Shown in pieces: positions 41,764 to 63,258 of a stretch of DNA of 64,000 nt. Position 1 is the first letter of the stretch. Every line of letters starts with the position of its first letter. The notes beneath the pieces were generated by a model. That model saw nothing but the letters and a program-made list of their open reading frames with translations, was not told the origin of the DNA and did not search any database. The stretch lies in contig JAUZOE010000022.1 of NCBI GenBank assembly GCA_030706605.1, positions 1-64,000 of the forward strand. The letters run 5' to 3'. The translations under genes were made by a program, and so were the position numbers. This DNA comes from Bacteroidota bacterium (GTDB lineage: Bacteria; Bacteroidota; Bacteroidia; Chitinophagales; Chitinophagaceae).

Positions 41764-41828
41764 TGACCACTGTCATTATTTTTACTGCCCACCATCATGG
41801 TTTCTACTTGTCAGACCCCATATCTTCG
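41764..41828 (+). promoter_or_regulatory. Paired FNR-like operator and promoter of hsp20
   Basis: Sites TGAC-N4-GTCA (41764-41775, perfect) and TGCC-N4-ATCA (41786-41797, one half degenerate) start 22 bp apart. The -7 box TATCTTCG (41821-41828) begins 29.5 bp from the centre of the nearer site. Confidence 0.72.
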
Positions 41829-41861
41829 TGTAGTTAAAATTTTTATTTAAAACTAAAAAAT

Positions 41862-41868
41862 AAGGAGG
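41862..41868 (+). promoter_or_regulatory. Strong Shine-Dalgarno of hsp20
   Basis: The heptamer aaggagg lies 5 bases before the hsp20 ATG. Such a perfect Shine-Dalgarno is unusual in this window, where most genes have none, and suggests high translation. Confidence 0.7.
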
Positions 41869-41873
41869 TTATT

Positions 41874-42326
41874 ATGACTACCAGAAATTTGGCAAAAGCA
41901 GGTGATTTGCTACCATTGCCATTAGTATTTGACGATTTCTTCAAACCCTGGAATGAATGGTTGGGGAATGGAGGTATATTGGGAAGTGCTTTGACAGTTC
42001 CCGCAATGAATATTACCGAGAATAAAGAAGATTATAAAGTGACTCTGGCAGCACCGGGACTGAAGAAAAGCGATTTTAAAATTGATGTAGAAGGTAATAT
42101 GCTAACCATTAGCAGCGAAAAAGAAGAAAACCGGGAAGAAAAAGATGTCCGCTATACCCGCAAGGAATATAGCTATTCTTCTTTTAGCCGGAGTTTTATG
42201 CTGCCCGAAGATGTAAAACAAGCTAATATTGAAGCAACTTATGAGGATGGCGTGTTAAAACTGAAATTGCCTAAAAAAGAAGAAGCTAAGAAAATGGCTG
42301 TATCAAAACATATTGCCGTTAAGTGA
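41874..42326 (+). CDS. Small heat shock protein, Hsp20/alpha-crystallin family
   Basis: 150-aa holdase chaperone that binds unfolding proteins. The alpha-crystallin domain covers about 45-140, with ITENKEDYKVTLAAPGLKK, the DVEGNMLTISSEK strand and the A-x-x-x-n-G-v-L motif as ATYEDGVLKLKLPK. Upstream lies a paired FNR-like operator and a perfect Shine-Dalgarno; downstream a strong terminator, so it is a single-gene unit. First member of the proposed stress regulon. Confidence 0.95.
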   Translation: MTTRNLAKAGDLLPLPLVFDDFFKPWNEWLGNGGILGSALTVPAMNITENKEDYKVTLAAPGLKKSDFKIDVEGNMLTISSEKEENREEKDVRYTRKEYSYSSFSRSFMLPEDVKQANIEATYEDGVLKLKLPKKEEAKKMAVSKHIAVK

Positions 42327-42347
42327 ATTAGCAAAGATCTGGTTTAT

Positions 42348-42378
42348 ACCCCGTTGCCATGGCTGCGGGGTTTTTTTT
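42348..42378 (+). terminator. Terminator of hsp20
   Basis: Stem accccg/cggggt (42348-42353 and 42366-42371) with an inner gccatggc palindrome, followed by eight T. Confidence 0.88.
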
Positions 42379-42448
42379 GGATATTATGAGCTGGCATAAG
42401 AAGCTATTATAATATAGCCTCTCAAGTCATGTAAAAACACTTGGGTTT

Positions 42449-43999
42449 TTAAAATTTTTTCTTATTATATATATTTCCATAAAATCGGACTGTTGCAGAT
42501 GAATCTACCCAGGCAGGACTATAGAGAACAAATAAAGGTACTTTTTCATTTACAGGCACAGAAATGGGTTTCTGATTATATAAACAACTTTTTTCAGTAA
42601 TAGTATCAACAGCAATGGTATTATCCTTTAAAACAAAACGGGCTAATTCGACCGCCTTCTCTACACGCATGCAACCATGACTAAAATATCTCCTGTTAAA
42701 ATCGAATAAACTTTTCAAGGGAGTATCATGAAGATAAACACTGTAAGGACTGTAAAAATTAAGTTTTATAATACCCAACGAATTATCACAGCCAGTTGAT
42801 TGACGCAATGTATAAGGAAAATAATTAGCGCTGAGCGCTTTCCAGTTAACGGAAAAAGGCAGGATTATTTCCCCGTGTTCATTTAATACCTGAAAATTAT
42901 TGGCATTCAGGTAGCTGATATTCTTTTTAATAAGTGGAAGTAATTCCCGGCTGGCTATTTTTTTTGGAACAAACCAGTAGGGGAATAATATTACTTCTGT
43001 AATGTTACTGCAAAGAGTGGGAGTAGGAGTTGACTTTTTACCTACAATAATTTTAGACTCCTTTATTAAATTTCCAGGTCCATACATCAGTAATGTAGCA
43101 GAGGGGATATTTACAATAATAGTGTATTGTTCCTGCTCTCTGATACAACGTAACCAGCGGATAGTATTAAGAGCAATATTTAGCCACGAAATCCTTACTG
43201 ACAAAGGGAGATTTAATTCCCGCATTGTTGTTGTACCTAACACTCCGTCGTCCAATACAGAAAAAAGTTGTTGAGCCTCTTTTATTTTTTCCTTTAATTC
43301 ACCAGGGGTACTACTTCTACTCAGGGAATCAATAAGACCTAATTGATATAATTTTAGTATCAATGGCTTGTTTTCAGAATTCATTAGTTTTGACTTAATA
43401 CGGATTTCATGTTTTATGGCCGTATCCTTTAGCATCTTATTGTATTGAATAATTTTATTTTTAATAGCTATATATTCCGGAGATTGCATTTCAATCCTTT
43501 GTAAAAAACTACTAAACTGACCGGATAACAAAGAGGATGTCAATAATGAAGGGATATTAAAACAATCGGGGAAATAGTTTAAGCCATTATAGCCTATATC
43601 GGGGGAAATATTTCCAAATACCACGTCACGAAAAAAATGAATAGCCGCATTTGTAAAACGAATTTCGGCAATCAACGAATCTTTTATTGTCAATTTATTT
43701 CCAGGAAATTTGCGTATGAAATTAAAATGATAATCTTTTTCCTTTAATCCAAGATTGGGCGACATTTTTAAGAAATCAAGTAACCGCTTGCGACGCACTT
43801 CATTGTATAGCCAGACTATGTTATAATGATACATTTTATAAAACTCTCTAACCTGTTTAGGATATTCAACTAAACCTGATTTCTCCCAGGCATCTTTTGC
43901 TAAAAACTCCTGTAATGCTTCAGGGGGTATTTGTGCAGTAACAGATTGAGCTAACATACAAAATGCCAAGAAAATAATTATTTTTCTTATTTGTATCAT
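42449..43999 (-). CDS. L,D-transpeptidase (YkuD family) with scaffold domain
   Basis: 516-aa exported enzyme that makes 3-3 cross-links in peptidoglycan or ties proteins to it. Signal peptide at 1-22 (FCMLAQSVTAQ); a scaffold region up to about 270 includes a peptidoglycan-binding-like part (LFSVLDDGVLGTTTMRELNL); the YkuD domain follows with the catalytic SHGCMRVEKA. The start is the ATG at 43999, because the TTG at 44020 lies upstream of the proposed -7 box (44014-44007). It shares a paired operator with the divergent coiled-coil gene. Confidence 0.88.
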   Translation of the reverse strand: MIQIRKIIIFLAFCMLAQSVTAQIPPEALQEFLAKDAWEKSGLVEYPKQVREFYKMYHYNIVWLYNEVRRKRLLDFLKMSPNLGLKEKDYHFNFIRKFPGNKLTIKDSLIAEIRFTNAAIHFFRDVVFGNISPDIGYNGLNYFPDCFNIPSLLTSSLLSGQFSSFLQRIEMQSPEYIAIKNKIIQYNKMLKDTAIKHEIRIKSKLMNSENKPLILKLYQLGLIDSLSRSSTPGELKEKIKEAQQLFSVLDDGVLGTTTMRELNLPLSVRISWLNIALNTIRWLRCIREQEQYTIIVNIPSATLLMYGPGNLIKESKIIVGKKSTPTPTLCSNITEVILFPYWFVPKKIASRELLPLIKKNISYLNANNFQVLNEHGEIILPFSVNWKALSANYFPYTLRQSTGCDNSLGIIKLNFYSPYSVYLHDTPLKSLFDFNRRYFSHGCMRVEKAVELARFVLKDNTIAVDTITEKSCLYNQKPISVPVNEKVPLFVLYSPAWVDSSATVRFYGNIYNKKKF

Positions 44000-44006
44000 G
44001 TGCACA

Positions 44007-44104
44007 CAAATATATTTCAATGTGGCATCTTATAATAATGATAACCATCAAGGTTTCACTTGCTCACCATCATAATTTTTTACATTTCCTATAGAATACT
44101 TTTG
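44007..44104. promoter_or_regulatory. Shared paired operator with two divergent promoters (L,D-transpeptidase / coiled-coil gene)
   Basis: Sites TGAT-N4-ATCA (44039-44050, perfect) and TGCT-N4-ATCA (44061-44072) start 22 bp apart. Perfect -7 boxes lie on both sides: TATATTTG on the minus strand (44014-44007) and TACTTTTG on the plus strand (44097-44104), each beginning 30.5 bp from the centre of its nearer site. Confidence 0.78.
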
Positions 44105-44131
44105 TACTGACATATGTTTTATTTAAAACTA

Positions 44132-44539: not shown

Positions 44540-44540
44540 T

Positions 44541-45584
44541 TTAATTCGCAAGGTTTTCCAGTTTTTTTTCGTTGAGAATAACAATAGTGCCATCCCGCAT
44601 GTCAATCAGTTTCTCATTTTTAAAATCCCCCAATGTTCTGATCATTGATTCGGTGGCTGTTCCTGCAATGGTAGCAAGGTTTTCTCGAGTGATATTAAGG
44701 GATGTTTTGTATTTTTTCTGGAGAGTAATCAATGAATCGGCCACTTTTTTTCTGAGTGAGTTGTATGCCATTTTTACCAATAGCTCCTCTATATCTGTTA
44801 TGTTTTTTGCCAGGAGAGTAATAAACTTTCGGGCTACTTCCTTGTTAATACTCATTAGTTCTTCAAAATCCTCTTTTGGAATTACGGACAGTTCTGTATC
44901 CTCCATGGCTACTGCAGTTTCTTTATAAGCAGTTCCTTCTAACAGGGCTACGTGCCCAAGGAAGTCTCCCTGGTTAAAGAGGCCGACAGCCAACTCTTTA
45001 CCATCATCATTAGTCTTGTATATTTTAACTTTCCCTTTTTGAACATAAAACAGCCGTGAAGGACGGTTGCCTTCAGAATAAATAACTTGTTTTTTTTTGT
45101 ATTTATTAATATTTCTATCTACTGTAAATGATTGTAAAATATCTCTGCCACTACTAACCTGCATCAGTTCATCCAAACCTTGAAGTCCTGTAGAAAATTG
45201 CTGCTTCAATAAATCCATTTTTTTTAAGCGACCCTCAACGGCAGTAAGTAGTTCGGTACCTTTAAAAGGCTTTGTCAGGTAATCATCAGCACCCAGTTCC
45301 ATTCCCTTGCGTAATTCCATCATTTCAGTTTTGGCTGTCAGAAAAATAAAAGGTATATTTTGTAAATTAGGATTTTTCTGTATCAGGTGGAGCACACCAT
45401 ATCCATCCAGCACCGGCATCATAATATCGCAGATAATCAGGTCCGGTTTTTTCTCTAACGCTATTTCTATGCCTGCTTTCCCGTTTTCAGCGGTAAACAC
45501 TTTATAATTGGCCAACTCCAATATCTCGGCAGTATTATCACGAATATTTTGATTATCTTCTATAAGTAATATTTTCTTCATCAT
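44541..45584 (-). CDS. Receiver-CRP/FNR fusion transcription regulator
   Basis: 347-aa regulator joining two input types. Residues 1-125 are a receiver domain with phospho-acceptor Asp53 (ICDIMMPVLDG), Thr83 and Lys105. Residues about 145-260 are a cyclic-nucleotide-binding-type beta barrel, and 275-347 a CRP-type winged helix. The recognition helix TATESMIRTLGDF keeps Glu312 and Arg316 at the places where CRP and FNR contact the TGA core. No FNR-type iron-sulfur Cys cluster is present. It lies downstream of a PAS histidine kinase and is the best candidate to bind the TGAY-N4-RTCA pairs of this region (inference). Confidence 0.9.
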   Translation of the reverse strand: MMKKILLIEDNQNIRDNTAEILELANYKVFTAENGKAGIEIALEKKPDLIICDIMMPVLDGYGVLHLIQKNPNLQNIPFIFLTAKTEMMELRKGMELGADDYLTKPFKGTELLTAVEGRLKKMDLLKQQFSTGLQGLDELMQVSSGRDILQSFTVDRNINKYKKKQVIYSEGNRPSRLFYVQKGKVKIYKTNDDGKELAVGLFNQGDFLGHVALLEGTAYKETAVAMEDTELSVIPKEDFEELMSINKEVARKFITLLAKNITDIEELLVKMAYNSLRKKVADSLITLQKKYKTSLNITRENLATIAGTATESMIRTLGDFKNEKLIDMRDGTIVILNEKKLENLAN

Positions 45585-45641: not shown

Positions 45642-45763
45642 CTATTTTTATGCCTGATTTTCTTTTTCAACCGTAAAAACTTTATAATTACTCAACTCCA
45701 ATATGTGGTAGTATTGTTCCGAATATTTTGATTGTCTCCTTTAAGCTATATTTTCTTCATCAT
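45642..45763 (-). pseudogene. Decayed copy of the regulator gene's 5' end
   Basis: This 122-bp stretch aligns with 45461-45584, the first 41 codons of the regulator gene, with about 20 mismatches and two single-base gaps in my hand alignment. The reading frame opens ATG ATG AAG AAA ATA and then hits TAG at codon 6. Its ATG overlaps the kinase stop codon as ATGA, the arrangement of a coupled kinase-regulator pair. The intact regulator follows 57 bp further on. Confidence 0.85.
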
Positions 45764-46986
45764 ACTTTACGGGAATTAAATACCAGGGTCATTGTTGTTC
45801 CTTTTTCTAACATACTATCACAAGCTATTGTGCCATTCATTAGTTCAACGTATCTAGCAACAATATGTAAACCAAGGCCAGTCCCTTCAATATTAATTGC
45901 ATTTTCACCCCTAAAAAATCGTTCAAATAAATACGCCTGATCTTTTTTAGATATACCCATTCCCTGGTCTTTCACCACTATTATTAATTGTCCATCTTTC
46001 ACCGTACTAATAATTTCAATGTCAGTTTTTTCCGGAGAAAACTTAATAGCATTCGACAATAAGTTCATTACAATATGTTTCATAATTGAAGCATCCAGGA
46101 AAACAATTGTCTCACCCACATGGCGGTGTAGAATTTTTTGCCCAGGTTTTCTAACATCTTTTATTTCTTCAATGGTAAGATCAATCAATTCAGAAATATT
46201 AAAGTTGCTCCATTTCAGATGAATTTTTCCTTCTTCTATCTTACCTAATGATAAAAAATCGTTTAAAATATCTGTCAATGTATTTGCAGAAGCATTAATT
46301 CTTTCAATATGTTTCTCTCTTTTAGCCTGCTCTTCTGTGGAAGTATATTGTTGTAATAAATAAGCAGAAGACAATATAGTGCTGAGCGGTGTCTTAAACT
46401 CGTGTGAAGCAAGGGATATAAAACGGAACTTCATTTCATTCAATTCTTTTTCGCTGCTAAGCGCAAATTCTAAATTATTTTTAGAAGTTTCAAGTTTATT
46501 AAGTATTTCATTTAATTGTTGAGTACGTTCCTCTACTTTTTTTTCCAGATTATCTTTCAGGTCATATATTTCCTGTTCTGCTTTTTTACGGATGGTGATA
46601 TTATTAATAAAAGCAATTACAAAATTATCTTCGTTCTTGCTATAATGGCAAAGACTCACTTCCACAGGAAATTCAGTTCCATCCTTTCGTACCCCATATA
46701 AATCAATACCAATTCCCATTGCACGATTCTGCAAATGCATATTAAAATTTTCCCGGTGTTGTGTATGCTTTTGTTGCAATTGTTTTGGAATAAGCACTTC
46801 CACTTTTTTGCCAGCCAATTCATCTTCCTGGTAACCAAACTGGGCAAGCATAAAAGGATTCGCCAAAATGATCTCTCCTTGGTGGTTTGTAACAATAATG
46901 CCGATTGAGACATTGGTAAAGATGGACTCCACAAGATGTATCTTGTTAATAAACATCTTTAGTTTATTTTGTTTTAAAGATCCCAT
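45760..46986 (-). CDS. PAS-domain sensor histidine kinase
   Basis: 408-aa kinase without clear transmembrane segments, so probably cytosolic. One PAS domain (about 15-130) has VLIPKQLQQKHTQHRE and MGIGIDLYGVRKDGTEFPVE; a coiled coil spans about 135-185; the phospho-acceptor His195 lies in SLASHEFKTPLS; the ATPase has NLLSNAIKFSP, KDQGMGISKKD and GTGLGLHIVARY. His74 aligns with the haem-ligand His of FixL, but the distal Arg of FixL is Ile here, so oxygen sensing is not established. Natural partner of the receiver-CRP protein downstream. Confidence 0.88.
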   Translation of the reverse strand: MGSLKQNKLKMFINKIHLVESIFTNVSIGIIVTNHQGEIILANPFMLAQFGYQEDELAGKKVEVLIPKQLQQKHTQHRENFNMHLQNRAMGIGIDLYGVRKDGTEFPVEVSLCHYSKNEDNFVIAFINNITIRKKAEQEIYDLKDNLEKKVEERTQQLNEILNKLETSKNNLEFALSSEKELNEMKFRFISLASHEFKTPLSTILSSAYLLQQYTSTEEQAKREKHIERINASANTLTDILNDFLSLGKIEEGKIHLKWSNFNISELIDLTIEEIKDVRKPGQKILHRHVGETIVFLDASIMKHIVMNLLSNAIKFSPEKTDIEIISTVKDGQLIIVVKDQGMGISKKDQAYLFERFFRGENAINIEGTGLGLHIVARYVELMNGTIACDSMLEKGTTMTLVFNSRKV

Positions 46987-47061: not shown

Positions 47062-47126
47062 TTTTCCCTATCAGCAATTACACTGATCATCATCATAGTC
47101 TTTCCATTGTTGTCATATTAATTTCG
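47062..47126 (+). promoter_or_regulatory. Paired FNR-like operator and promoter of the ppsA operon
   Basis: Perfect TGAT-N4-ATCA at 47084-47095; 22 bp upstream only the ATCA half is kept (47062-47073), and a GTCA half-site occurs at 47112-47115. The -7 box TAATTTCG (47119-47126) begins 29.5 bp from the centre of the perfect site. Confidence 0.65.
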
Positions 47127-47161: not shown

Positions 47162-49549
47162 ATGGATAATTTAATTAAAAAATTTGATAAAATCAGCATT
47201 AGTGATATAGCTGTAGTAGGAGGCAAAAACGCATCTCTTGGCGAAATGTTTTCTAAGCTTTCATCCAAAGGTATTCCCGTGCCAGAAGGTTTCGCCATCA
47301 CAGCTTTTGCTTTTGAAGAGTTTCTGACACATAACTCATTGCATGTTCCTTTGAATAACCTGATGCTTCATCTGGATAAAAAAAAATATGCAAACCTTCA
47401 GGAAATAGGTGGCAAGGCAAGAAAGTTATTGCTTAATGCCGAACTTCCTAAAAACCTGCAGCTTGCCATAGTACATGCTTATAAAGAATTGTGTGGAAAA
47501 GAATATTTTGAAGTAGCAGTAAGGAGTAGTGCCACCGCGGAAGATTTACCACAGGCAAGTTTTGCCGGACAACATGAATCATATCTCAATGTTAAAGGCG
47601 AAGAAGCTCTACTTAAAGCCGTGCAGAAATGTTTTGCTTCACTCTACACAGACAGAGCTATCAAATATCGTGAGGATAATGGTTTTGAGCACAGTAAAGT
47701 ATCCTTGTCTGTGGGTGTACAAAGAATGGTACGTTCAGATAAAGCCTGTTCTGGTGTTGGATTTACGCTGGAGCCTGAATCGGGTTTCAGGGATATCATT
47801 CACCTGAGCGGCGTTTGGGGGTTGGGAGAAAATATTGTTCAGGGCACTGTAACGCCGGATGAATTTTTTGTTTTCAAACCAACATTGATACAAAAGAGAA
47901 ATCCCATTATTCAAAAAAAGTTAGGTGCAAAAGAAAAAATGATGATTTATAGTGATGATGAAAATAACCCTGTAGTCAACCTTCCCACACCGAAAGAAAA
48001 ACAGGAACAATACGTGTTGAATGATGATGAAATAACCAGGCTGGCCAATTGGGCATTAATTATTGAAGAACATTATCAAAAACCAATGGATATTGAATGG
48101 GCAAAGGACGGCATTACCCGTGAATTATTTATTATCCAGGCAAGGCCCGAAACAGTTCATTCCCAAAAAAATCCATTGCTGGTAAAAGAATATGCTCTGA
48201 TGGATAAAGGAGAGCGCCTGACAAGCGGCGAAGCTATTGGCTCTAAAGTAGTGACTGGCATAGCCCGGATTTTGAAATCACCTGAAGAATCAAATAAATT
48301 ACAGCCTGGCGAAATTGTGGTAACTGATTTAACCAGCCCTGATTGGGACCCGATACTAAAAAATGCCACAGGCATTATTACTAATAAAGGCGGAAGGACA
48401 AGCCACGCTTCTATTGTAGCCCGTGAGCTGGGTGTTCCTGCCATTGTTGGTTGTGGAGATGCTACAAAAAAAATTACAGATGGAGAAACGATAACGGTTT
48501 CCTGCTGTGAAGGAAAAACTGGGTTTGTGTACAAAGGGAAATTGACATTTAAAGAAACTGAACTTGATTTCTCCAATATAAAGAAACCGGAAACTACTGA
48601 AGTAATGCTGATTGCAGGAGATCCTGATAAGGCATTTAAGTTATCATTTTACCCCAATGATGGCATAGGTTTATTACGAATGGAATTTATAATTACCCAT
48701 TCAATACAAATTCACCCGATGGCGCTGGTTAGGTTTGATGAATTGAAAGATGAAGCCGTAAAGCAAAAGATCGAAGAGCTTACACATCATTACCCTGATA
48801 AATGCAACTATTTTGTAGATAAACTGTCGCAGGGCGTGGCTACTATAGCGGCTGCATTTTATCCGAAGGATGTTATTGTCCGCATGAGCGATTTTAAGAC
48901 CAATGAATACGCCAACCTGATTGGCGGGAAAGATTTTGAACCTAAAGAAGAAAACCCTATGATCGGTTTTCGCGGGGCATCCAGGTATTATAATAATTTA
49001 TATAAAGAAGGTTTTCGACTGGAATGTGACGCTATCCGGAAAGTGAGGGATGAAATGGGTTTAACTAATGTGAAAGTAATGATTCCTTTTTGCAGGACCA
49101 TAGAAGAAGGCAACAAAGTGATTGCAGTAATGAAGACCTTTGGCCTTGAACAAGGAGTTAATAACCTGGAAATATATGTGATGGCCGAAATCCCCAGCAA
49201 CGTATTGCTTGCCGGAAAATTTGCACAAATATTTGATGGATTCTCTATTGGTTCAAATGATTTAACACAGCTTACCCTGGGTATTGACAGGGATTCTGCA
49301 ATCGTCAGCAATTTGTTCAGTGAGCAAAATGAAGCGGCTAAAGAAATGATTGCTATGATGATCAATAAAGCAAAAAAAGCGGGTATGAAAATCGGGTTAT
49401 GTGGCCAGGCTCCCAGCGATTTTCCTGAGTTTGCACAATTTTTAGTAGAGCAAGGCATTGACAGCATTTCATTTAACTCTGATGCTCTACTAAAAGGCAT
49501 TGAAAATATTAATAAGGCCGAATCAAAAGCTCTTCTAAATACACTATAA
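47162..49549 (+). CDS. ppsA: Phosphoenolpyruvate synthase
   Basis: 795-aa enzyme turning pyruvate and ATP into PEP, AMP and phosphate, the entry to gluconeogenesis from pyruvate. The N-terminal ATP-grasp domain (about 15-340) begins GGKNASLGEMFSKL; the swivelling phospho-His domain carries His415 in GGRTSHASIVAREL; the C-terminal barrel ends with the catalytic Cys in GLCGQAPSD. Normal length. Genes for an SDR (10 bp later) and a PfkB-type kinase follow in the same direction, probably one operon under the paired operator. Confidence 0.94.
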   Translation: MDNLIKKFDKISISDIAVVGGKNASLGEMFSKLSSKGIPVPEGFAITAFAFEEFLTHNSLHVPLNNLMLHLDKKKYANLQEIGGKARKLLLNAELPKNLQLAIVHAYKELCGKEYFEVAVRSSATAEDLPQASFAGQHESYLNVKGEEALLKAVQKCFASLYTDRAIKYREDNGFEHSKVSLSVGVQRMVRSDKACSGVGFTLEPESGFRDIIHLSGVWGLGENIVQGTVTPDEFFVFKPTLIQKRNPIIQKKLGAKEKMMIYSDDENNPVVNLPTPKEKQEQYVLNDDEITRLANWALIIEEHYQKPMDIEWAKDGITRELFIIQARPETVHSQKNPLLVKEYALMDKGERLTSGEAIGSKVVTGIARILKSPEESNKLQPGEIVVTDLTSPDWDPILKNATGIITNKGGRTSHASIVARELGVPAIVGCGDATKKITDGETITVSCCEGKTGFVYKGKLTFKETELDFSNIKKPETTEVMLIAGDPDKAFKLSFYPNDGIGLLRMEFIITHSIQIHPMALVRFDELKDEAVKQKIEELTHHYPDKCNYFVDKLSQGVATIAAAFYPKDVIVRMSDFKTNEYANLIGGKDFEPKEENPMIGFRGASRYYNNLYKEGFRLECDAIRKVRDEMGLTNVKVMIPFCRTIEEGNKVIAVMKTFGLEQGVNNLEIYVMAEIPSNVLLAGKFAQIFDGFSIGSNDLTQLTLGIDRDSAIVSNLFSEQNEAAKEMIAMMINKAKKAGMKIGLCGQAPSDFPEFAQFLVEQGIDSISFNSDALLKGIENINKAESKALLNTL

Positions 49550-49559
49550 AATAATTAAT

Positions 49560-50312
49560 ATGGAACGTTTAAAAAATAAAGTGGTAATCATTACTGGTGC
49601 AGCAGGAGGTATGGGTGCTACGGAAGCAAAATTATTTGCACAGGAAGGTGCAAAAGTTATTGCAACCGACTTACAGGAAGATAAACTAAAAAAATGGGTG
49701 GAGGAAGCTTCCGAAGAGGGATTTACAATTGATTATGTCAAACATGAGGTTTCCAGTGAAGCTGATTGGCAGAAAGTGGTTGACATGACATTAGCTTTAC
49801 ATGGCCGGATTGACGTATTGGTTAATAATGCCGGGGTATTTCCTGGTTTTACGGACTGTGAACAAACAACCAAAGAACTGTGGGATAAAGTTATTGCTAT
49901 TAATCTCACAGGGCCATTCCTGGGATGTAAAGCTTGTATCCCTCACATGAGAAAAAGCGGAGGTGGTTCTATTGTAAATATTTCTTCAATCGCAGGTTTG
50001 GTAGGAGGAAACGGTGCAGCTTATACATCCTCAAAGGGAGGTTTACGCTTGCTTAGCAAAGACCTTGCTGTTACATTGGCAAAAGATAAAATAAGGGTTA
50101 ATACCATTTGTCCTGGTGCTGTTTTAACGCCAATGACTGAAGACTTACTGAAACAACCAAGTATGGATGAAACTATCAAGAGCATGTCTCCTCAGGCACG
50201 GGTCGCTGACGCTATCGAAATCGCATGGGGTGCTTTATTTCTTGCTTCAGACGAATCATCATTTGTAACCGGGGCAGATTTAACAATTGATGGCGGAGCA
50301 GTAGCTAGGTAA
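49560..50312 (+). CDS. Short-chain dehydrogenase/reductase
   Basis: 250-aa classical SDR with the cofactor motif TGAAGGMG at 12-19, the NNAG motif (VLVNNAGVFPG), and the catalytic Ser with Tyr155 and Lys159 (AAYTSSKGG). It ends with SSFVTGADLTIDGGAVA, usual for 3-oxoacyl-ACP reductase or glucose dehydrogenase-like members. Substrate not predictable. It sits 10 bp after ppsA. Confidence 0.88.
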   Translation: MERLKNKVVIITGAAGGMGATEAKLFAQEGAKVIATDLQEDKLKKWVEEASEEGFTIDYVKHEVSSEADWQKVVDMTLALHGRIDVLVNNAGVFPGFTDCEQTTKELWDKVIAINLTGPFLGCKACIPHMRKSGGGSIVNISSIAGLVGGNGAAYTSSKGGLRLLSKDLAVTLAKDKIRVNTICPGAVLTPMTEDLLKQPSMDETIKSMSPQARVADAIEIAWGALFLASDESSFVTGADLTIDGGAVAR

Positions 50313-50392
50313 TAAATAAAAATCCGAAATAAGTAAAACCTTGTTTAATCAAGGAATACTTTTATAACTTCCGAATAAATAAATATTAAGAC

Positions 50393-52397: not shown

Positions 52398-52552
52398 GAT
52401 TCCATTGCATTGAGCCAAACAAGAAAATCATAAAGTTTCATTAAAAACCATTCTATTGCCTGTTTACCGTAATGACTTGATAGGTACATGACAAATAGTA
52501 AAGTAACCCCGTATGCCAATAATTCTGATAATATTTTTTCTGAGGTTATCAT
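52394..52552 (-). CDS. Small 52-aa protein coupled to the AI-2E gene
   Basis: A 52-codon frame beginning MITSEKILSELLAYGVTLLF and ending WLNAMES. It has one hydrophobic helix in its first half. Its stop overlaps the AI-2E ATG (ATGA), and a -7-like box (52581-52574) with the paired operator lies directly upstream, so it would be the first gene of the transcript. I do not recognise a family. Confidence 0.65.
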   Translation of the reverse strand: MITSEKILSELLAYGVTLLFVMYLSSHYGKQAIEWFLMKLYDFLVWLNAMES

Positions 52553-52573: not shown

Positions 52574-52669
52574 CAAAGTAAATAGATTTAATCGTCACTA
52601 TCAATGATGGCTATCAATTTTTTACTTGATGGAGGTCATTAATTTACTACCCTTCATCAGCTAGATTTG
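52574..52669. promoter_or_regulatory. Shared paired operator with two divergent promoters (52-aa/AI-2E and phospholipase D)
   Basis: TGAT-N4-ATCA (52605-52616, perfect) and TGAT-N4-GTCA (52627-52638) start 22 bp apart. The forward -7 box TAGATTTG (52662-52669) is perfect; the reverse one is TTACTTTG (52581-52574). Both begin 29.5 bp from the centre of the nearer site, which puts it close to -41.5. Confidence 0.8.
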
Positions 52670-53908: not shown

Positions 53909-54919
53909 TTAATTTCCACTTATTCTTTTTAATAATGATTCTATTGTTTGTCGGTTCCATCCTTCAAATCTGCCACGCTGTACTACCAGCGTGTTATCTT
54001 GTGGATGTTGCAAAAAATAATGGAACACGAATTTATTCCCGGGAAATTGCCATCCAATAATTTGGCCAAAGCGCAAATCATTAAATACAAGGGTGTCACC
54101 CCATTTTTCCACCGTATAAAATTGCTGAGAGAAGCGGATAAGATGCTGGATATCTTCATGGTCCCGTATAGAATTTAATAAAGAATCATTACGGGGAAAA
54201 TATTGAAAATCAATTTCTTTTTTATTATCGAATAATGAGCGAAAACCAACATGGTAGCCGCTGTCATTGCCAGCCACAATATACCATAACCAGTTTTGTA
54301 GAGGTGCCGGAGTAGTAAAATATCTTGTATAACTGATTTGTTGCTTATGCAATATGTATTTTACATCCGTATCTATTTTAACTTTATTGATTAGACAGTA
54401 TAATAAATACAATGTACTTAGTCCAAGACCCAAGTGCCACCAGTTTTTCCGTTTTTTGTTTCCTCTTTTTAAATAAATAAGTGCGACACAGGCCATACCA
54501 GGCCAGAAAGAGAAGAAAGGATCGACAACATAAATAGCATTGAAAGAAATGCGTTGATGGCTGAATGGTTCAAACCATCCGACGCCATAATTATTAAAGG
54601 CATCAATAAAAACATGTGCGAAAATTACTCCTCCAAAAAACAACATCCACTTTCCCAGCCGGATATTATGCGGCCGGTGCCAATATTCAGCAAGCAAAGC
54701 AAACAAAGGGGTAATAATAATACAAAACAAAAATGAATGCGTAAACCCACGATGAGCCAGTAAAGCTGAAGGTGTATGCATCCAGGAGGAAGCGATAAAA
54801 TCAATATCCGGAATACTTTGAGCGAGAGCTCCCCATAACATGGCTTTCTTGCCAAGTTTTTTCCCGGCAAAAGCTTCGCCCATACAGGCTCCAAGCGCAA
54901 GATGCGTAAGAGAATCCAT
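53909..54919 (-). CDS. YdjM/DUF457-type membrane-bound metal-dependent hydrolase
   Basis: 336-aa polytopic protein. The N-terminal MDSLTHLALGACMGEA and the SIPDIDFIASSW and AHRGFTHSFLF motifs hold the conserved His and Asp residues of the DUF457 family. About five membrane segments lie in the first 200 residues, followed by a soluble domain. The start is chosen at MDSLTH; two further ATGs lie upstream (54922 and 54937). Reaction unknown. It shares an operator pair with the gene at 55075. Confidence 0.8.
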   Translation of the reverse strand: MDSLTHLALGACMGEAFAGKKLGKKAMLWGALAQSIPDIDFIASSWMHTPSALLAHRGFTHSFLFCIIITPLFALLAEYWHRPHNIRLGKWMLFFGGVIFAHVFIDAFNNYGVGWFEPFSHQRISFNAIYVVDPFFSFWPGMACVALIYLKRGNKKRKNWWHLGLGLSTLYLLYCLINKVKIDTDVKYILHKQQISYTRYFTTPAPLQNWLWYIVAGNDSGYHVGFRSLFDNKKEIDFQYFPRNDSLLNSIRDHEDIQHLIRFSQQFYTVEKWGDTLVFNDLRFGQIIGWQFPGNKFVFHYFLQHPQDNTLVVQRGRFEGWNRQTIESLLKRISGN

Positions 54920-54922
54920 CAT

Positions 54923-55021
54923 TAAATATAGCAACATTTATGAGAATAATATTTGTGAGAACAATCAATACTTTTTGTGATGGACATCAGTGTTTTGAGA
55001 TAGTTTTAAAAAGTAGCTTGG
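54923..55021. promoter_or_regulatory. Shared paired operator (metal-dependent hydrolase / small membrane protein)
   Basis: TGAG-N4-ATCA (54956-54967, degenerate first half) and TGAT-N4-ATCA (54978-54989, perfect) start 22 bp apart. Candidate -7 boxes are TAGCTTGG (55014-55021, plus) and TATATTTA (54930-54923, minus), each with one mismatch to TAnnTTTG. Confidence 0.6.
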
Positions 55022-57016: not shown

Positions 57017-57215
57017 TTACTTTTTAAAAGTACTTAGCCTGAATAGGGGGTAAAGCGTACAAAAGCCTATGATACTAGTCAATACAAGTACTACAACGAG
57101 TATCAGTAATATTATACCTAAGGTACCACTAACTGCTTCGCTAAAATATAAATAGGCAAAAGCAACAGCCAGAAAAATGCGAATTATACGGTCAGTTTTT
57201 CCCAGTTTTTTTCAT
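57017..57215 (-). pseudogene. DUF2892/YgaP-like small membrane protein gene with a frameshift
   Basis: The minus strand here encodes LGKTDRIIRIFLAVAFAYLY, then IILLILVVVLVLTSIIGFCT and YPLFRLSTFKK, clearly the two-helix DUF2892 family (about 65 aa). Yet the only ATG (57215) is out of frame by one base, because it is followed by seven A; six A would give MKKLGKTDR. The frame of the protein has a stop directly upstream and no other start. Either a true frameshift, slippage on the A run, or a sequencing error. It lies 18 bp after the lipoprotein gene. Confidence 0.75.
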
Positions 57216-57943: not shown

Positions 57944-58039
57944 CAAAGCTATCAGATTATGTACCTAGCATCAATGATCACCATCACTGAAAAAATTGAC
58001 AGTTGTCATTGGTTATAACTATAAAATATGTTCTTTTTG
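57944..58039. promoter_or_regulatory. Shared paired operator (lipoprotein operon / erythromycin-esterase-like gene)
   Basis: TGAT-N4-ATCA (57975-57986) and TGAC-N4-GTCA (57997-58008) are both perfect and start 22 bp apart. The reverse -7 box TAGCTTTG (57951-57944) is perfect; the forward one is TCTTTTTG (58032-58039), with one mismatch. Both begin 29.5 bp from the centre of the nearer site. Confidence 0.82.
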
Positions 58040-58139: not shown

Positions 58140-59477
58140 ATGCGTCATTATTTTACAAAAAACTCCACTATAAATCAAACGGAAATAGTAAGTGCCATTA
58201 AACAATGGGCCTACCCATTACAAAGCAAAGCTGATTTGCAGCCTTTGTTTGACCGCATAGGTGATGCAAGAATTGTAATGTTGGGTGAAGCAAGCCATGG
58301 CACACATGAATATTATACCTGGCGGGCACATATTTCAAAAAAGTTAATCGAGGAAAAGGGTTTCAATTTTATTGCTGTAGAAGGTGATTGGCCTGATTGT
58401 TACCGGCTCAATCGTTTTGTAAAGGGGTATGATATTGATAATAAAAGTGCTTTTAAAGTGTTACATGCTTTTAATCGCTGGCCTACCTGGATGTGGGCCA
58501 ACTGGGAAATAGTAGCAATTGCTGACTGGCTTCAACAACATAATGCGGGATTACCGGCCAACAAGAAAGCAGGTTTTTATGGCCTGGATGTTTATAGTCT
58601 ATGGGAAAGCATGGAGAGCATTATGCAATATTTAAAGAAAACAGACCCGGCTGCATTGAAAGTTGCCGAAGAAGCCTTCTCATGCTTTGAACCTTATCGT
58701 AAAGATGAGGGGCGCTCATATGCACAAGCGAGTATGCTTGTTCCGGAACTATGCCAAAATGAAGTAGTGGGATTACTGAAAGAGATTCGCAGAAAGTTAC
58801 CTCAATATAACACTGATTATGAAAATGTATTTAGCGCCGAACAAAATGCATTAATAGCAGTAAATGCAGAAAGATACTATCGTGCTATGATACAGGGAGG
58901 ACCGCATAGTTGGAACCTGCGGGATCGGCATATGGCGGATACTCTGGAGCGTTTACTCTCTTTTCATGGAGAAACTTCTAAAGTAATTGTATGGGAGCAT
59001 AACACTCATGTAGGTGATGCGAGAGCAACGGATATGGTGGATGAAGGCATGTACAATATCGGAGAATTGGTAAGGTTAGAACACCATGATAAGGGAGTGG
59101 TACTGGTTGGCTTCGGCTCTTATAAAGGAACGGTTATGGCCGGGCATAGCTGGGGAGCTACCATGCGGTCTATGCAAATGCCAGAAGCAACACAGGAAAG
59201 CTGGGAATATTTATTGCACCAGGCAGGGAAAGAAAATAAATTGTTGTTGATGGAGGATTTTTCTACTAATGATGCCATTATGGAAAACCATATTGGTCAC
59301 CGGGCTATAGGCGTAGTATATAATCCTCAATATGAACAATATGGAAACTATGTGCCAAGCATTCTACCCTTACGTTATGATGCCTTTATTTACCTGGATC
59401 AGACGAAGGCATTACATCCACTTCATATAGAACCTGACGGGCGACAGATGCCTGAAACATATCCGTTTGGGGTGTGA
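58140..59477 (+). CDS. Erythromycin esterase-like protein
   Basis: 445-aa protein of the EreA-like fold. The motifs are GEASHGTHEYYTWRAHI (from residue 49), FNFIAVEGDWPDCYR and VWEHNTHVGDARATDM. Despite the name, most members do not break macrolides; their natural substrate is unknown. In Mycobacterium tuberculosis Rv2030c, a DosR-regulon protein, this domain is fused to a phosphoribosyltransferase; here the phosphoribosyltransferase is the next gene on the opposite strand. It has a perfect paired operator upstream. Confidence 0.9.
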   Translation: MRHYFTKNSTINQTEIVSAIKQWAYPLQSKADLQPLFDRIGDARIVMLGEASHGTHEYYTWRAHISKKLIEEKGFNFIAVEGDWPDCYRLNRFVKGYDIDNKSAFKVLHAFNRWPTWMWANWEIVAIADWLQQHNAGLPANKKAGFYGLDVYSLWESMESIMQYLKKTDPAALKVAEEAFSCFEPYRKDEGRSYAQASMLVPELCQNEVVGLLKEIRRKLPQYNTDYENVFSAEQNALIAVNAERYYRAMIQGGPHSWNLRDRHMADTLERLLSFHGETSKVIVWEHNTHVGDARATDMVDEGMYNIGELVRLEHHDKGVVLVGFGSYKGTVMAGHSWGATMRSMQMPEATQESWEYLLHQAGKENKLLLMEDFSTNDAIMENHIGHRAIGVVYNPQYEQYGNYVPSILPLRYDAFIYLDQTKALHPLHIEPDGRQMPETYPFGV

Positions 59478-59491
59478 TAGTAAATCAAATT

Positions 59492-60124
59492 TTACCGAAC
59501 TTTTTCTAATTCACTAAATTTATCTAAATAGAACATTACTTCTTCATCACTTACCTGTTCAAAATCCTCATAAAACGCTCCTACACCGTGAAATTCTTCG
59601 GGTACTATTACTGTTACTATTTCATCTACTTCATTCGATAATTTTTGTACAGCAGTTCGTGATGCTACCGGGGTGCCGATTATAATTTTGCCGGGATTAC
59701 TTTTTCGTAATACCTGGATTGAACTTAACATGGTGTTTCCAGTTGCAATACCATCGTCAATGATGATCACTGTTTTTCCTTTCAGGTTTTCTGGTTCTTT
59801 GTTGCCCATAAATCTTTTGTACATCTCTTTTAACCGGTTGCGGATTCTTTGCAGTTCCTGTTCAATGTATTCTTCCGGAATATTCTCATGAGGTATTACA
59901 AAATAATCAGTAAGGCTTGCTGCTCCGATAGCATATTCTTTATTCATCGGATGGCCAATTTTCTTAGTAAGAATTATCTCTATAGGAAAGCCTAATTCTT
60001 TTGCCACCGCGTATGCTACAGGAACTCCTCCTCTTGGCACCGCCAATACCACACCTTGTTCGGTTTTGTATTTTTTTAATTTTTCGGCCAGCATTAAGCC
60101 GGCTTGCATTCTATCTCGGAACAT
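59492..60124 (-). CDS. Phosphoribosyltransferase-family protein
   Basis: 210-aa type I phosphoribosyltransferase-like protein. The PRPP loop TVIIIDDGIATGNTML is at 118-133, and the N-terminal VVLAVPRGGVPVAYAVAKEL is typical of the family linked to erythromycin-esterase proteins. The base substrate is unknown. It converges with the esterase gene (14 bp apart) and has its own operator pair and a perfect -7 box upstream. Confidence 0.86.
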   Translation of the reverse strand: MFRDRMQAGLMLAEKLKKYKTEQGVVLAVPRGGVPVAYAVAKELGFPIEIILTKKIGHPMNKEYAIGAASLTDYFVIPHENIPEEYIEQELQRIRNRLKEMYKRFMGNKEPENLKGKTVIIIDDGIATGNTMLSSIQVLRKSNPGKIIIGTPVASRTAVQKLSNEVDEIVTVIVPEEFHGVGAFYEDFEQVSDEEVMFYLDKFSELEKVR

Positions 60125-60148
60125 GTAAATGGTTCTATTTTAAGACTA

Positions 60149-60214
60149 CAAATCTACCAAAACTCTAAATCTTCTAGTAATGACTATCATCAAACAAAAC
60201 CTTGACAGTCGTCA
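60149..60214 (-). promoter_or_regulatory. Paired FNR-like operator and promoter of the phosphoribosyltransferase gene
   Basis: TGAC-N4-ATCA (60181-60192) and TGAC-N4-GTCA (60203-60214) start 22 bp apart. The minus-strand -7 box TAGATTTG (60156-60149) is perfect and begins 30.5 bp from the centre of the nearer site. Confidence 0.82.
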
Positions 60215-60570
60215 TTATGTGTGAATAGGAAAGGCGTTTGTTTTGATTTGAGGTTGTTTTATTAAATAGGTAATTGAAAAGGAAGAAAGTTGACTACTAA
60301 ACTATTTTCTTTAATAAAAATCCTATGATATATAGTATCTTCAAAAAAGCAACTATTGCAGATGAGTTTAACTATGGTATATCATAATGGTAAATTTATA
60401 AAATTCTTTAACTGGTGGGGGAGGTTTAATTGGGGGAAATTTTTTTCAATTTCTTTTTCCAAAACCAGCTGTTCATATACAGGATTAATTTGTGCCTTAA
60501 CAAAACTTGTTGCCAGCCATCCTGCAATCAATAATTACCTTTAAAGCTTTCATTTTTCAGACAAAAATTT
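60215..60570. other. Gap without a supported gene
   Basis: About 350 bp between the operator of the phosphoribosyltransferase gene and the end of the ATPase gene. A 62-codon forward frame (60356-60544) has poor composition and no family features. I see nothing else. Confidence 0.45.
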
Positions 60571-63084
60571 TTACAGTTTTTTCATCAAAAATATTTTCGT
60601 TAGCTCGCTTACGATTACATACATAACTGCAATTCCTAAAATACTTATCAGCACTCTGAAAGGCAATGGGCTTAAACTGAATATTTCTGAAAAAGGCAGA
60701 TAGGGTATGGCTAAAGACAGCATAAAAATACCTAAACAAGCCATCACAAGAAATTTTGATGGTCTGCTTTTAAAAAAAGGACGCTGGGTACGAATTACAA
60801 GAAGTATAAGAATTTCCGTTAAAAGGCTTTCCATAAACCAGCCGGTTCGAAATGAAGAAGGAGTTGTATGAAATATATACAGTAATAAACTGAACGTTAA
60901 GAAATCGAAAAGAGAACTTTCCAGGCCAAAAACGATCATAAATCGCCTGATATATTTTACATCCCAACGACGGGGTTTTGCTATTAATTCTTCATCTACT
61001 TTGTCTGAAGCAATAGTAAGGGCCGGAATATCAGATAAAAAATTGTTTAACAAAATCTGCACGGGCAAGAGAGGCAGGAACGGCAGGAAAAAGGAAGCAA
61101 TTGCCATACTGATCATATTTCCAAAATTAGCGCTGGTAGTTACGAAAACATACTTCAACGTATTCATAAATGTTTTGCGGCCTTCTAATATACCTTCTAC
61201 TACAACATCAAGATCTTTTTCAAGCAGTACCAGCGAGGCTGCTTCTTTGGCTACATCAACAGCGTTGTCGGTTGAAATGCCCACATCGGCTATCTTTAAG
61301 GCGTTGGCATCATTGATCCCATCACCGAGGTAGCCTACTGCATAGCCGTTTTTCTGTAATGCACGGATAATACGTTCTTTTTGTACCGGTTCAATTTCTG
61401 CAAATAGGTCTGTTTCATTTACTTTTCGTTGCAGTGCATCTGAGGTAATATGGGTCAAATCATATCCTGTTAGTATTTCGTGTTGCTTCAATCCTATTTG
61501 TGCCGCTATATGCTGTGCTACCAGGCGATTATCGCCGGTAATAAGTTTCAAGGTAATACCCGTCTGTTTTAATTTAGCGATGGATGTTATGATGCCTTCT
61601 TTAGGTGGATCAAAAAAAGTTATAAATCCCAACAATATCATGTCCAGTTCATCATTCTTATTGATCCTGGTGGTATTGCTTACATCTTTGTAACACACTG
61701 CAATGGTGCGAAAACCATTACTACTGAACTGAAGATATAATTTATCAATACCTGCCTGAACCTGCTCCAATCCAACTATTTTTCCATCCGGTAACTCAGC
61801 TCTTGTACAACATTGCAGTACGTTATTAACGGCACCTTTGGTAATCATTATATGCCTGGAACCGTCATTAATTAGCACACTCAATCGTTTCCTGATAAAA
61901 TCATAAGGCACTTCATCCTGTTTAATGCAGTTCTGTATATCCATTTTTTCAAGACTTCGAATGGCTTCATCAATCGGGTTAGAAAATCCCGTTTCAAAAT
62001 AAGCATTCCGGTAAGCATAGATCTTTACTTTCTCGCTGTCGGCCCCCGTTGCCCCCACCGTGGATTCTATTTTTACAACCCCTTGGGTTATAGTCCCCGT
62101 TTTATCTGAACATAAAATATTCATTTCTCCCAGGTTCTGGATAGCACTTAATTTTTTCACAATCACTTTTTTGATAGCCATCCGACGGGCGCCGGCAGAT
62201 AAGGTAACAGTAACAATTATTGGTAATAATTCCGGCGTAATGCCTACGGCCAGGGCCAGCGCAAACAGCAGTGAATCAACTACAGGTTTATGAAATAATA
62301 TATTCAACACCAGTATCAGCAAAACAATAATAACGGTAATGCGCATGAGCAAGTAGCCAAACTGCCGGATGCCTTTCTCAAAAGCTGTTTCAGGAGTACT
62401 CTTTTGCAACCGTTTAGCAATTTTTCCCATTTCTGTATTTGGGCCGGTGTTTACAGCCAGCACTGTTGCTGTTCCATTAATAACATTCGTTCCTTCAAAA
62501 ACGGCATTAATTACCCTGGCCGGTAAAGACTCCATACTAACGGTGCCGACGAATTTTTCGGCAGGGAATGACTCGCCTGTTAGCATAGCTTCATTTACAT
62601 GAAGATCATTTGTCTCCAGTATCAATGCGTCGGCTGGAATAATGTCTCCTGCATTTAATAATACGATATCTCCAGGCGCCACTTCCTTTATGCTGATCTC
62701 TCTCTCTATACCTTCTCTCTTTACTGTAGCTTTATTACGGACCAGTTCCTGCAGTTTTTCTACTGACCTTCCCGCATTTCGTTCCTGTATAAATCCAAAA
62801 ATACCTGTTAGCAATAAAATTATTATGATAATAAAGCCGTTGGAATATTCTTTTAACACTAACGATAAAAAGGCCGCAAATACTAATAATAATACTAAAG
62901 GACTTTTATATTGCGACAGCAAAAGGAAAGCATCTTTTTGCCATTTTTTCTGATTAAATTTATTTTGTTGCTGTTCCTGTAAACGGTCATAAGCCTCTTC
63001 ATTGCTGATACCGTTTTCAGTTGCATTAAGCATTTGAAATAACTGATACTTAGAAAAACTCCAGAAATTTTCTATAGATTTCAA
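60571..63084 (-). CDS. mgtA: Magnesium-translocating P-type ATPase (MgtA/MgtB type)
   Basis: Inner-membrane P3B-type ATPase that imports Mg2+. The phosphorylated Asp327 lies in CSDKTGTITQG, the hinge in YLGDGINDANALKIAD, and the membrane motif in ITPELLPIIVTVTLS. The frame opens at a TTG at 63111, but that triplet falls in the proposed -7 box (63111-63104), so I place the start at the TTG at 63084, giving 837 aa and beginning before ENFWSFSKYQLFQ. No ATG is available there. A perfect operator pair precedes it. Confidence 0.9.
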   Translation of the reverse strand: MKSIENFWSFSKYQLFQMLNATENGISNEEAYDRLQEQQQNKFNQKKWQKDAFLLLSQYKSPLVLLLVFAAFLSLVLKEYSNGFIIIIILLLTGIFGFIQERNAGRSVEKLQELVRNKATVKREGIEREISIKEVAPGDIVLLNAGDIIPADALILETNDLHVNEAMLTGESFPAEKFVGTVSMESLPARVINAVFEGTNVINGTATVLAVNTGPNTEMGKIAKRLQKSTPETAFEKGIRQFGYLLMRITVIIVLLILVLNILFHKPVVDSLLFALALAVGITPELLPIIVTVTLSAGARRMAIKKVIVKKLSAIQNLGEMNILCSDKTGTITQGVVKIESTVGATGADSEKVKIYAYRNAYFETGFSNPIDEAIRSLEKMDIQNCIKQDEVPYDFIRKRLSVLINDGSRHIMITKGAVNNVLQCCTRAELPDGKIVGLEQVQAGIDKLYLQFSSNGFRTIAVCYKDVSNTTRINKNDELDMILLGFITFFDPPKEGIITSIAKLKQTGITLKLITGDNRLVAQHIAAQIGLKQHEILTGYDLTHITSDALQRKVNETDLFAEIEPVQKERIIRALQKNGYAVGYLGDGINDANALKIADVGISTDNAVDVAKEAASLVLLEKDLDVVVEGILEGRKTFMNTLKYVFVTTSANFGNMISMAIASFFLPFLPLLPVQILLNNFLSDIPALTIASDKVDEELIAKPRRWDVKYIRRFMIVFGLESSLFDFLTFSLLLYIFHTTPSSFRTGWFMESLLTEILILLVIRTQRPFFKSRPSKFLVMACLGIFMLSLAIPYLPFSEIFSLSPLPFRVLISILGIAVMYVIVSELTKIFLMKKL

Positions 63085-63103
63085 TGATTTTATTTTCTGC
63101 CAA

Positions 63104-63168
63104 CAAAGCAAAGGTCTTTAATCCATGATACCTATGATGACTATCAAGGTTTTATTTGATGATCATCA
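63104..63168 (-). promoter_or_regulatory. Paired FNR-like operator and promoter of mgtA
   Basis: TGAT-N4-ATCA at 63135-63146 and again at 63157-63168, both perfect and starting 22 bp apart. The minus-strand -7 box TTGCTTTG (63111-63104, one mismatch) begins 29.5 bp from the centre of the nearer site. Confidence 0.78.
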
Positions 63169-63192
63169 TTCTATTTAAAAGAGACAACCCGC

Positions 63193-63258
63193 TGCTGACA
63201 ATCAAACTTTATTATGATAACCGTCATAATTATCCGGGGTAATCAAACGATACATTTA
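63193..63258 (+). promoter_or_regulatory. Paired FNR-like operator and promoter of the BON gene
   Basis: TGCT-N4-ATCA (63193-63204) and TGAT-N4-GTCA (63215-63226) start 22 bp apart. The -7 box TACATTTA (63251-63258, one mismatch) begins 30.5 bp from the centre of the nearer site. This pair is separate from the mgtA pair in the same gap. Confidence 0.7.

Follow-up and report, generated by a model that had tools for sequence, protein, structure and literature searches.

Tandem palindromic operators with a fixed 22-bp spacing in Bacteroidota and a receiver-CRP response regulator as their likely reader

We analysed a 64-kb window from a Chitinophagaceae genome (positions 1 to 64,000 of contig JAUZOE010000022.1), in which an earlier reading of the letters alone (the sequence-only reading) had pointed out nine pairs of TGAY-N4-RTCA palindromes in eight intergenic regions between 41.7 and 63.3 kb, the two boxes of each pair starting 22 bp apart. 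All nine were located at the positions it gave. For these pairs we computed spacing, promoter geometry, conservation, association with a fusion protein and the content of the genes behind them. The operator pairs themselves are almost certainly genuine, and they are very likely read by the CRP-family proteins named below. We propose that they serve as tandem operators for a CRP-family activator, whose likeliest identity here would be a response regulator encoded in the same island that joins a receiver domain to a CRP-type DNA-binding part and lies beside the gene of a FixL-like PAS histidine kinase.

Four pairs (52605, 57975, 60181 and 63135) fit the consensus at both sites, one fewer than the five first counted. 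Another four (41764, 44039, 54956 and 63193) carry one mismatch over the 16 fixed positions, and pair 47062 carries two. A 36-column matrix was trained on 106 intergenic pairs from relatives only, with the window's own genome excluded. Its nine best matches in the window were exactly these nine pairs, with scores from 28.0 to 13.1 bits, while the tenth scored 7.6 bits and fell inside a gene; the claim that the window holds no other such pair was thereby borne out. In sixty Markov-shuffled windows scored with the same matrix, the maxima averaged 9.0 and never exceeded 16.9, and scores of at least 13.1 arose 0.08 times per window. Eight of the nine pairs exceed the top shuffled score. The lowest scorer, pair 47062, falls below it and, since 13.1 bits was reached in shuffled windows, could by itself be due to chance. 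A lone exact box was also seen at 57070-57081, 59 bp upstream of a DUF998 gene (55947-57011, minus strand), with no partner in the matrix list.

The 22-bp spacing extends beyond the island. Searching the whole 4.27-Mb genome for two exact boxes with 0-28 bases between them (spacings of 12-40 bp) returned 14 pairs, every one with 10 bases between the boxes, or 22 bp start to start, out of the 29 spacings allowed; the same search with a reversed pattern returned none. With up to two mismatches, pairs were found at 49 places across the genome vs 11 for the reversed pattern.

For the comparison with relatives, 80 loci of named records were used, chosen as the best-ranking among at least 496 relatives of the regulator; their titles include Chitinophagaceae, Rufibacter, Pontibacter and Emticicia (the last three being Cytophagales). 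Boxes are rare in coding DNA, with exact matches at 1.96 per kb between open reading frames (ORFs) vs 0.10 per kb within them. Exact pairs at the 22-bp spacing number 32 between ORFs and 2 within them in these loci; no other spacing up to 80 has more than 3, and five permuted palindromes gave no pair at 22 bp. Under an ORF mask slightly different from that behind the 32-pair count, 71% of the 241 exact boxes in intergenic DNA are accompanied at 22 bp by a partner that agrees in at least 6 of 8 positions, compared with 1-8% at other spacings of 13-40. One relative has a triple operator, three successive boxes each 22 bp apart (G007:C2:2518584-2518639). The spacing and the controls exclude a chance origin of the pairs. 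The computational checks proposed with the sequence-only reading (a genome-wide scan, a comparison of intergenic with coding DNA, and conservation in relatives) came out in its favour.

The pairs also hold a constant position relative to a promoter element. TAnnTTTG is the -7 box of Bacteroidota, and an upstream site at a fixed distance from it is typical of activators. Such a box had been reported 29.5-31.5 bp from the centre of the nearer site at all twelve promoters assigned. Allowing one mismatch, we found it in 14 of 17 ORF-facing orientations, starting 29.5 bp (eight cases), 30.5 bp (five) or 31.5 bp (one) from the nearer centre; pair 44039 has an exact TAnnTTTG on both sides at 30.5 bp. 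The three orientations without it are 47062 toward the kinase gene, 63135 toward the BON gene and 63193 toward the ATPase gene, and the BON and ATPase genes are each served by their own pair. One of the 14 passing orientations (60181, plus side) faces only a doubtful 62-aa ORF. As a control with a comparable four-position slot, 42 of 948 random intergenic positions passed. At exactly 29.5 bp, the box (at most one mismatch) is present in 75 of 124 oriented promoters of the relatives and in 13 of 23 at other loci of the window's own genome, and it emerged 29.5 bp downstream in a logo of 118 oriented sites built without reference to TAnnTTTG. This fixed distance supports an activator-like placement upstream of a Bacteroidota-type -7 box, which had been described as the classic activator position. 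If TAnnTTTG does act as the -7 box, the nearer site would lie at about -41.5 and the farther at about -63.5. In the logo, the spacer and the stretch from the near site to the -7 box are almost information-free beyond one or two bases beside each box, as might be expected if two protein dimers sit next to each other and the promoter lacks a strong -33 element.

Two other explanations of the operators bear on this geometry. The sites could be repressor sites or chance palindromes; the core is short, and the weakest of the nine pairs lies within the shuffled score range. Chance is excluded as described above, and a fixed upstream distance to the -7 box is what activators typically show, so that we consider this explanation very unlikely. 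Alternatively, each dimer could act alone at -41.5, with pairs arising only from the service of two divergent promoters. Seven of the nine window pairs are indeed flanked by divergent ORFs of at least 130 aa, and -7 boxes often occur on both sides. Among relatives, pairs with at most one mismatch occur in 32 of 146 regions between divergent genes, in 62 of 341 between co-directional genes and in 2 of 83 between convergent ones. Since convergent regions are avoided and co-directional regions are almost as rich as divergent ones, the pairs amount to more than a single site for each of two divergent genes. Moreover, among 28 divergent regions with a single pair, the -7 box stands on both sides in 7, on one side in 17 and on neither in 4. 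A purely divergent origin is disfavoured by these counts and seems very unlikely.

The proposed reader of the pairs (P0001) has receiver, cNMP_binding and HTH_Crp_2 domains (Pfam E-values of 8.9e-29, 1.1e-24 and 2.7e-13). Its cNMP_binding fold and HTH_Crp_2 domain place it in the CRP/FNR superfamily, and D10, D53 and K105 supply the acidic pocket, phospho-Asp and Lys of a response regulator. The output domain is HTH_Crp_2 and not of the LuxR type found in FixJ and DosR. All 43 aligned regulators keep D10, D53 and K105 in the receiver and E312 and R316 in the recognition helix, while T83 is Thr in 40 and Ser in 3. Glu181 and Arg185 of CRP read the GA of TGA, and in our alignment E312 and R316 match the residues that we take to be these two in E. 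coli CRP. Solved CRP structures could be aligned over about 190 residues of the C-terminal part. A structure model of the regulator had a mean predicted local distance difference test (pLDDT) of 81 and a predicted template modelling score (pTM) of 0.53, with an unreliable domain arrangement; its best 50 Foldseek matches were CRP-family chains covering only the CRP part. Among the 60 PDB sequences listed for the regulator, none spans the receiver and the CRP part, and none of the best 25 of 110 NCBIfam families reaches its cut-off.

Two familiar identities were tried for this protein and rejected. For cAMP-CRP, residues of the cAMP pocket are not kept: in what we take to be CRP numbering, the Glu72 position is H211 in the window regulator (Tyr in 37 and His in 6 of the 43), the Arg82 stretch reads YKET and the Arg180 position is Thr. 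The added receiver domain is a further difference from CRP. FNR has the consensus TTGAT-N4-ATCAA and four essential cysteines that bind a [4Fe-4S] cluster. The regulator has a single cysteine, C52, and the outer T/A of the FNR box is not preferred (A 52% and T 12% at the outer distal position of the logo, T 53% and A 14% at the outer proximal one); FNR proper was rejected as the reader on these two grounds. With the cAMP pocket not kept and one cysteine only, the signal is unlikely to be cAMP or an FNR-type cluster. The description of the boxes as FNR-like therefore stands for the TGAY-N4-RTCA core and fails for the outer bases and for the likely regulator, which lacks the Fe-S cysteines. As in FNR of E. 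coli and in the FNR/ANR/DNR group, we find a CRP fold, an E..R recognition helix, an activator-like position and a TGAT-N4-ATCA core; unlike in that group, the boxes are paired and the regulator carries a receiver domain.

We then related the pairs to the fusion protein across 296 genomes drawn from the phylum, 73 of them in the class. A P0001 search at 1e-40 matched 45 genomes, and dropping two matches confined to the receiver part left 43 with the fusion. Exact pairs are present in 38 of the 296 genomes, and the reversed pattern gave no exact pair in any of them. Of the 43 genomes with the fusion, 28 have pairs, vs 10 of the 253 lacking it (Fisher 3e-20); the counts for the class alone are 28 of 43 vs 4 of 30 (p = 1.1e-5). 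The surveyed genomes are related, and these p-values overstate their independence. Pairs cluster around the fusion gene as well, with 25 of 63 listed pairs (of 75 counted in fusion genomes other than the window's) within 25 kb of it and 0.67 expected.

A stand-alone FNR-like protein, P0004 (own genome, C39:20044-20757; no cysteine in its sequence), could instead be the main reader, leaving the receiver-CRP protein as a mere neighbour or in another role. When the class was split by hand, with a P0004 limit of 135 bits chosen after seeing the list, pairs were found in 22 of 36 genomes with the regulator only, 4 of 8 with a P0004-type protein only, 6 of 7 with both and 0 of 22 with neither. Relative to genomes with neither, p was 0.0026 for P0004-type only. 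In G273 and G146, a P0004-type match and an exact pair lie no more than about 100 bp from each other, and the targets in the window's own genome include cbb3-maturation and cytochrome genes. Against P0004 as main reader stand the result for fusion-only genomes (p = 7.5e-7 relative to neither), the clustering of pairs around the fusion gene and the situation outside the class, where only one of six genomes with a match of at least 135 bits has pairs (G271; not G144, G168, G192, G212 or G223). On this evidence we consider the idea improbable. Six genomes outside the class (G271, G078, G092, G113, G172 and G236) have exact pairs in the absence of the fusion; G271 has four, and the other five have one each.

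The two regulator types might also share one operator code and compete or add, such that signals from the kinase and from a stand-alone sensor meet. Each type alone predicts pairs in the class, as do both together, and Glu and Arg are kept at the presumed recognition-helix contacts in both. Conversely, the recognition helices differ (TATESMIRTL vs TARENVVRVL), and there may be two box flavours, as judged by eye only: window boxes are mostly R-Y in the middle, and several others are A/T-rich. This arrangement is a possibility to which we give limited credence. We think that both protein types use paired boxes, with the fusion as the more frequent user; a P0004-type protein probably reads such pairs too.

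Returning to the receiver-CRP regulator as the likeliest reader, the neighbouring kinase (P0002) offers a candidate input. Residues 1-144 have FixL as their best match among solved structures (1d06, 4e-12), and the first 13 of 17 PDB matches of the kinase PAS domain are FixL or DosP/YddU haem PAS sensors. The His that ligates haem in FixL is known, and a distal Arg lies in the haem pocket. H74 of the kinase aligns with this His. Among the best 30 of the 43 PAS_9 domains in the genome, only two have His at that column, and these belong to exactly the kinases beside the two fusion proteins. The second couple (G000:C4:34972-37193) again consists of a FixL-like kinase and a receiver-CRP regulator, the two regulators being 58% identical. 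The PAS domain of its kinase has His and Arg at both of the FixL positions, and the pair closest to this couple (at most two mismatches) is more than 15 kb away. The own-genome PAS_9 control supersedes a poor earlier one (His in 54 of 62 fusion-adjacent kinases vs 19 of 23 "others"), in which many of the "others" end just before a fusion gene and had been set apart by gap and length filters. Haem binding and oxygen sensing by the kinase are plausible from these alignments, and the case for oxygen as the signal is about evenly balanced.

The window genes are listed in Table 1 with their operators. At other loci of this genome, pairs carrying no more than one mismatch stand before the genes of FixS and a FixI-like ATPase. 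Others stand before genes for a cytochrome c, a di-haem peroxidase, proteins with EB_dh and YceI domains, pyruvate phosphate dikinase and two proteins resembling universal stress proteins (Usp; named by eye). On C71 (L017, 10684 and 14338), such pairs precede DNA polymerase X and phosphoribosyl pyrophosphate synthetase; the ribonucleotide reductase large-chain gene lies between them, after polymerase X, without a pair of its own. The pair before a glutamyl-tRNA reductase gene carries two mismatches. A second island, L014 (G000:C28, 1843-9148), has pairs before a BON protein and an ORF with a signal-peptide-like start. There, a single-domain receiver (142 aa; two-mismatch pair) lies behind a 1581-aa PAS-containing protein and resembles, by eye, the receiver of the fusion regulator.

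In relatives, targets include the kinase gene, cbb3 oxidase, a FixI-like pump, Hsp20 and Usp. The 104 genes behind pairs, a list biased to the neighbourhood of the fusion genes through which the 80 loci were fetched, contained HisKA (14), Usp (9), HSP20 (7), ATPase-cat_bd (6), COX1 (4) and FixO (3). A random 104 of the 980 other genes in these loci contained HisKA (4), COX1 (2) and FixO (2), and Usp, HSP20 and ATPase-cat_bd were not among the best 25 families listed for this background. FixI homologues occur in 18 of the 80 loci (7 of 19 genes with a pair) and Hsp20 in 15 (7 of 15 genes). Homologues of the window genes were also scored for an upstream pair with at most one mismatch, against a background of 208 of 1984 ORFs. 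Part of these loci were fetched for holding pairs, and only the counts for Hsp20 (10 of 19), the kinase (18 of 103) and ORF 44114 (7 of 29) are informative. The remaining counts were 4 of 93 for the regulator, 1 of 4 for phosphoenolpyruvate synthase, 2 of 5 for PfkB, 1 of 3 for AI-2E, 1 of 4 for ORF 55075, 2 of 13 for the cation ATPase and 1 of 6 for BON. No upstream pair was found for YkuD (0 of 5), the short-chain dehydrogenase (0 of 6), ORF 57237 (0 of 5), YdjM (0 of 2) or the phosphoribosyltransferase (0 of 2), and the fetched loci held no homologue of the phospholipase-D-like, DUF998 or erythromycin-esterase proteins. By analogy, the regulon resembles a microaerobic-plus-stress set like the FixK and FNR regulons, with the flavour of the DosR dormancy regulon.

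Table 1. Operator pairs and genes of the island, in window coordinates ("both" marks pairs not assigned to one strand)
Feature	Coordinates	Strand	Remarks
Operator pair	41764..41797	+	before Hsp20 gene 41874 (+); 1 mismatch; score 22.1
Hsp20 family chaperone	41874..42326	+	Pfam
YkuD L,D-transpeptidase family	42449..44020	-	Pfam
Operator pair	44039..44072	both	divergent YkuD gene (-) / ORF 44114 (+); 1 mismatch; score 20.0
ORF, 141 aa	44114..44539	+	no Pfam or NCBIfam match
Receiver-cNMP-HTH_Crp response regulator, 347 aa (P0001)	44541..45584	-	Pfam; candidate reader of the operators
PAS histidine kinase, 408 aa (P0002)	45760..46986	-	Pfam; no clear membrane segment; proposed partner of the regulator
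Operator pair, weakest	47062..47095	both	kinase gene (-) / phosphoenolpyruvate synthase gene (+); 2 mismatches; score 13.1
Phosphoenolpyruvate synthase	47162..49549	+	
Short-chain dehydrogenase and PfkB-family kinase	49560..51319	+	co-directional behind phosphoenolpyruvate synthase
AI-2E-family transporter	51354..52418	-	
Operator pair, exact	52605..52638	both	AI-2E-family transporter (-) / phospholipase-D-like gene (+); score 26.9
Phospholipase-D-like protein	52686..53870	+	
YdjM-family membrane protein	53909..54937	-	
Operator pair	54956..54989	both	YdjM-family gene (-) / ORF 55075 (+); 1 mismatch; score 22.9
ORF, 130 aa	55075..55467	+	no Pfam or NCBIfam match
ORF 57237, 221 aa	57234..57899	-	no Pfam or NCBIfam match
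Operator pair, exact	57975..58008	both	ORF 57237 (-) / erythromycin-esterase-family gene (+); score 27.1
Erythromycin-esterase-family protein	58140..59477	+	
Phosphoribosyltransferase-family protein	59492..60124	-	
Operator pair, exact	60181..60214	both	phosphoribosyltransferase gene (-); + side only doubtful 62-aa ORF; score 28.0
P-type cation ATPase	60571..63111	-	
Operator pair, exact	63135..63168	-	faces cation ATPase gene (-); score 26.4
Operator pair	63193..63226	+	faces BON-domain gene 63300 (+); 1 mismatch; score 23.7
Protein with three BON domains	63300..63974	+	

From these results we infer a mechanism in which a FixL-like kinase controls a one-protein "FixJ+FixK" activator that binds as two adjacent dimers. 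The cytosolic PAS kinase would use haem to detect low oxygen, or else a related redox or gas cue, and would phosphorylate the receiver domain of the regulator. Two dimers of the regulator would then occupy neighbouring sites 22 bp apart, on roughly one face of the DNA and centred near -41.5 and -63.5, and bring RNA polymerase to a promoter in which TAnnTTTG is the only recognisable core element. Between divergent genes, one pair may serve both, with a different dimer nearest to each gene. The products would protect resting or oxygen-limited cells: here a chaperone, a cation pump, phosphoenolpyruvate synthase, and cell-envelope and nucleotide enzymes; elsewhere cbb3 oxidase, a copper pump and universal stress proteins. 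Taken as a whole, this mechanism is in our judgement somewhat favoured. An evenly balanced proposition is that it forms part of a widespread and undescribed oxygen or redox circuit of Bacteroidota, comprising a FixL-like kinase, a receiver-CRP regulator that needs two dimers on a rigid 22-bp double box, and an FNR-like paralogue sharing the code.

Together with the relatedness of the surveyed genomes and the bias of the target list, several observations weigh against this mechanism. The last four of the 17 PDB matches of the kinase PAS are one multi-sensor kinase and blue-light receptors of the YtvA type, which are not haem proteins. At the His column, 20 of the 30 PAS_9 domains are gapped, and the control shows only that the two kinases share a FixL-like stretch. 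H74 is His in 82% of 67 aligned kinases beside a fusion gene and is not universal, and position 94, the counterpart of FixL's distal Arg, is occupied by Ile in the window kinase and by Arg in only 18% of the 67. The promoter on the kinase side in the window lacks a good -7 box, and its pair is the lowest-scoring of the nine. Across the survey, 15 of the 43 fusion genomes have no exact pair, 10 of the 253 fusion-less genomes do have exact pairs, and P0004-type proteins predict pairs too. Finally, cbb3 genes occur in the background sample as well.

Parts of the proposed system have counterparts in described ones. Like mycobacterial DosS/DosT-DosR, it may place a haem-sensor kinase over Hsp20, PfkB and a cation ATPase, and the phosphoribosyltransferase and erythromycin-esterase-like proteins recall the DosR regulon, a comparison made by description and not by sequence. 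Unlike this system, DosR has a LuxR-type output and another box, and DosS and DosT sense through GAF and not PAS domains. In the FixL-FixJ-FixK2 cascade of rhizobia, the FixK box is a TGAY/RTCA-type palindrome. Our system shares with this cascade the FixL-like PAS kinase, the CRP-family activator and the palindrome, and cbb3 oxidase and copper-pump genes are among the targets in relatives. It differs in joining receiver and CRP-type activator in one protein without a LuxR-type FixJ output, in its two tandem boxes fixed at 22 bp, in a kinase without a clear membrane segment and in the dominance of stress genes in the island. FixK2 of rhizobia is treated in PMC9104804. Our literature search, mostly outside subscription papers, found no description of a receiver-CRP regulator or of a 22-bp paired operator in Bacteroidota. 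Within the literature searched, the regulator type and the operator code are undescribed, and each part belongs to a known kind. The earlier proposal of an undescribed regulon is upheld to this extent; it had missed the regulator and kinase inside the cluster, and such pairs occur genome-wide.

A regulator type present in 43 of 296 genomes sampled from the phylum is tied to a precise operator code, and its regulon can be predicted with sequence as the only input. Promoters at which two dimers take a fixed position and TAnnTTTG is the only element would offer a clean system for studying how activators cooperate with the RNA polymerase of Bacteroidota. Through the FixL-like kinase, it becomes possible to test directly whether oxygen governs stress survival.

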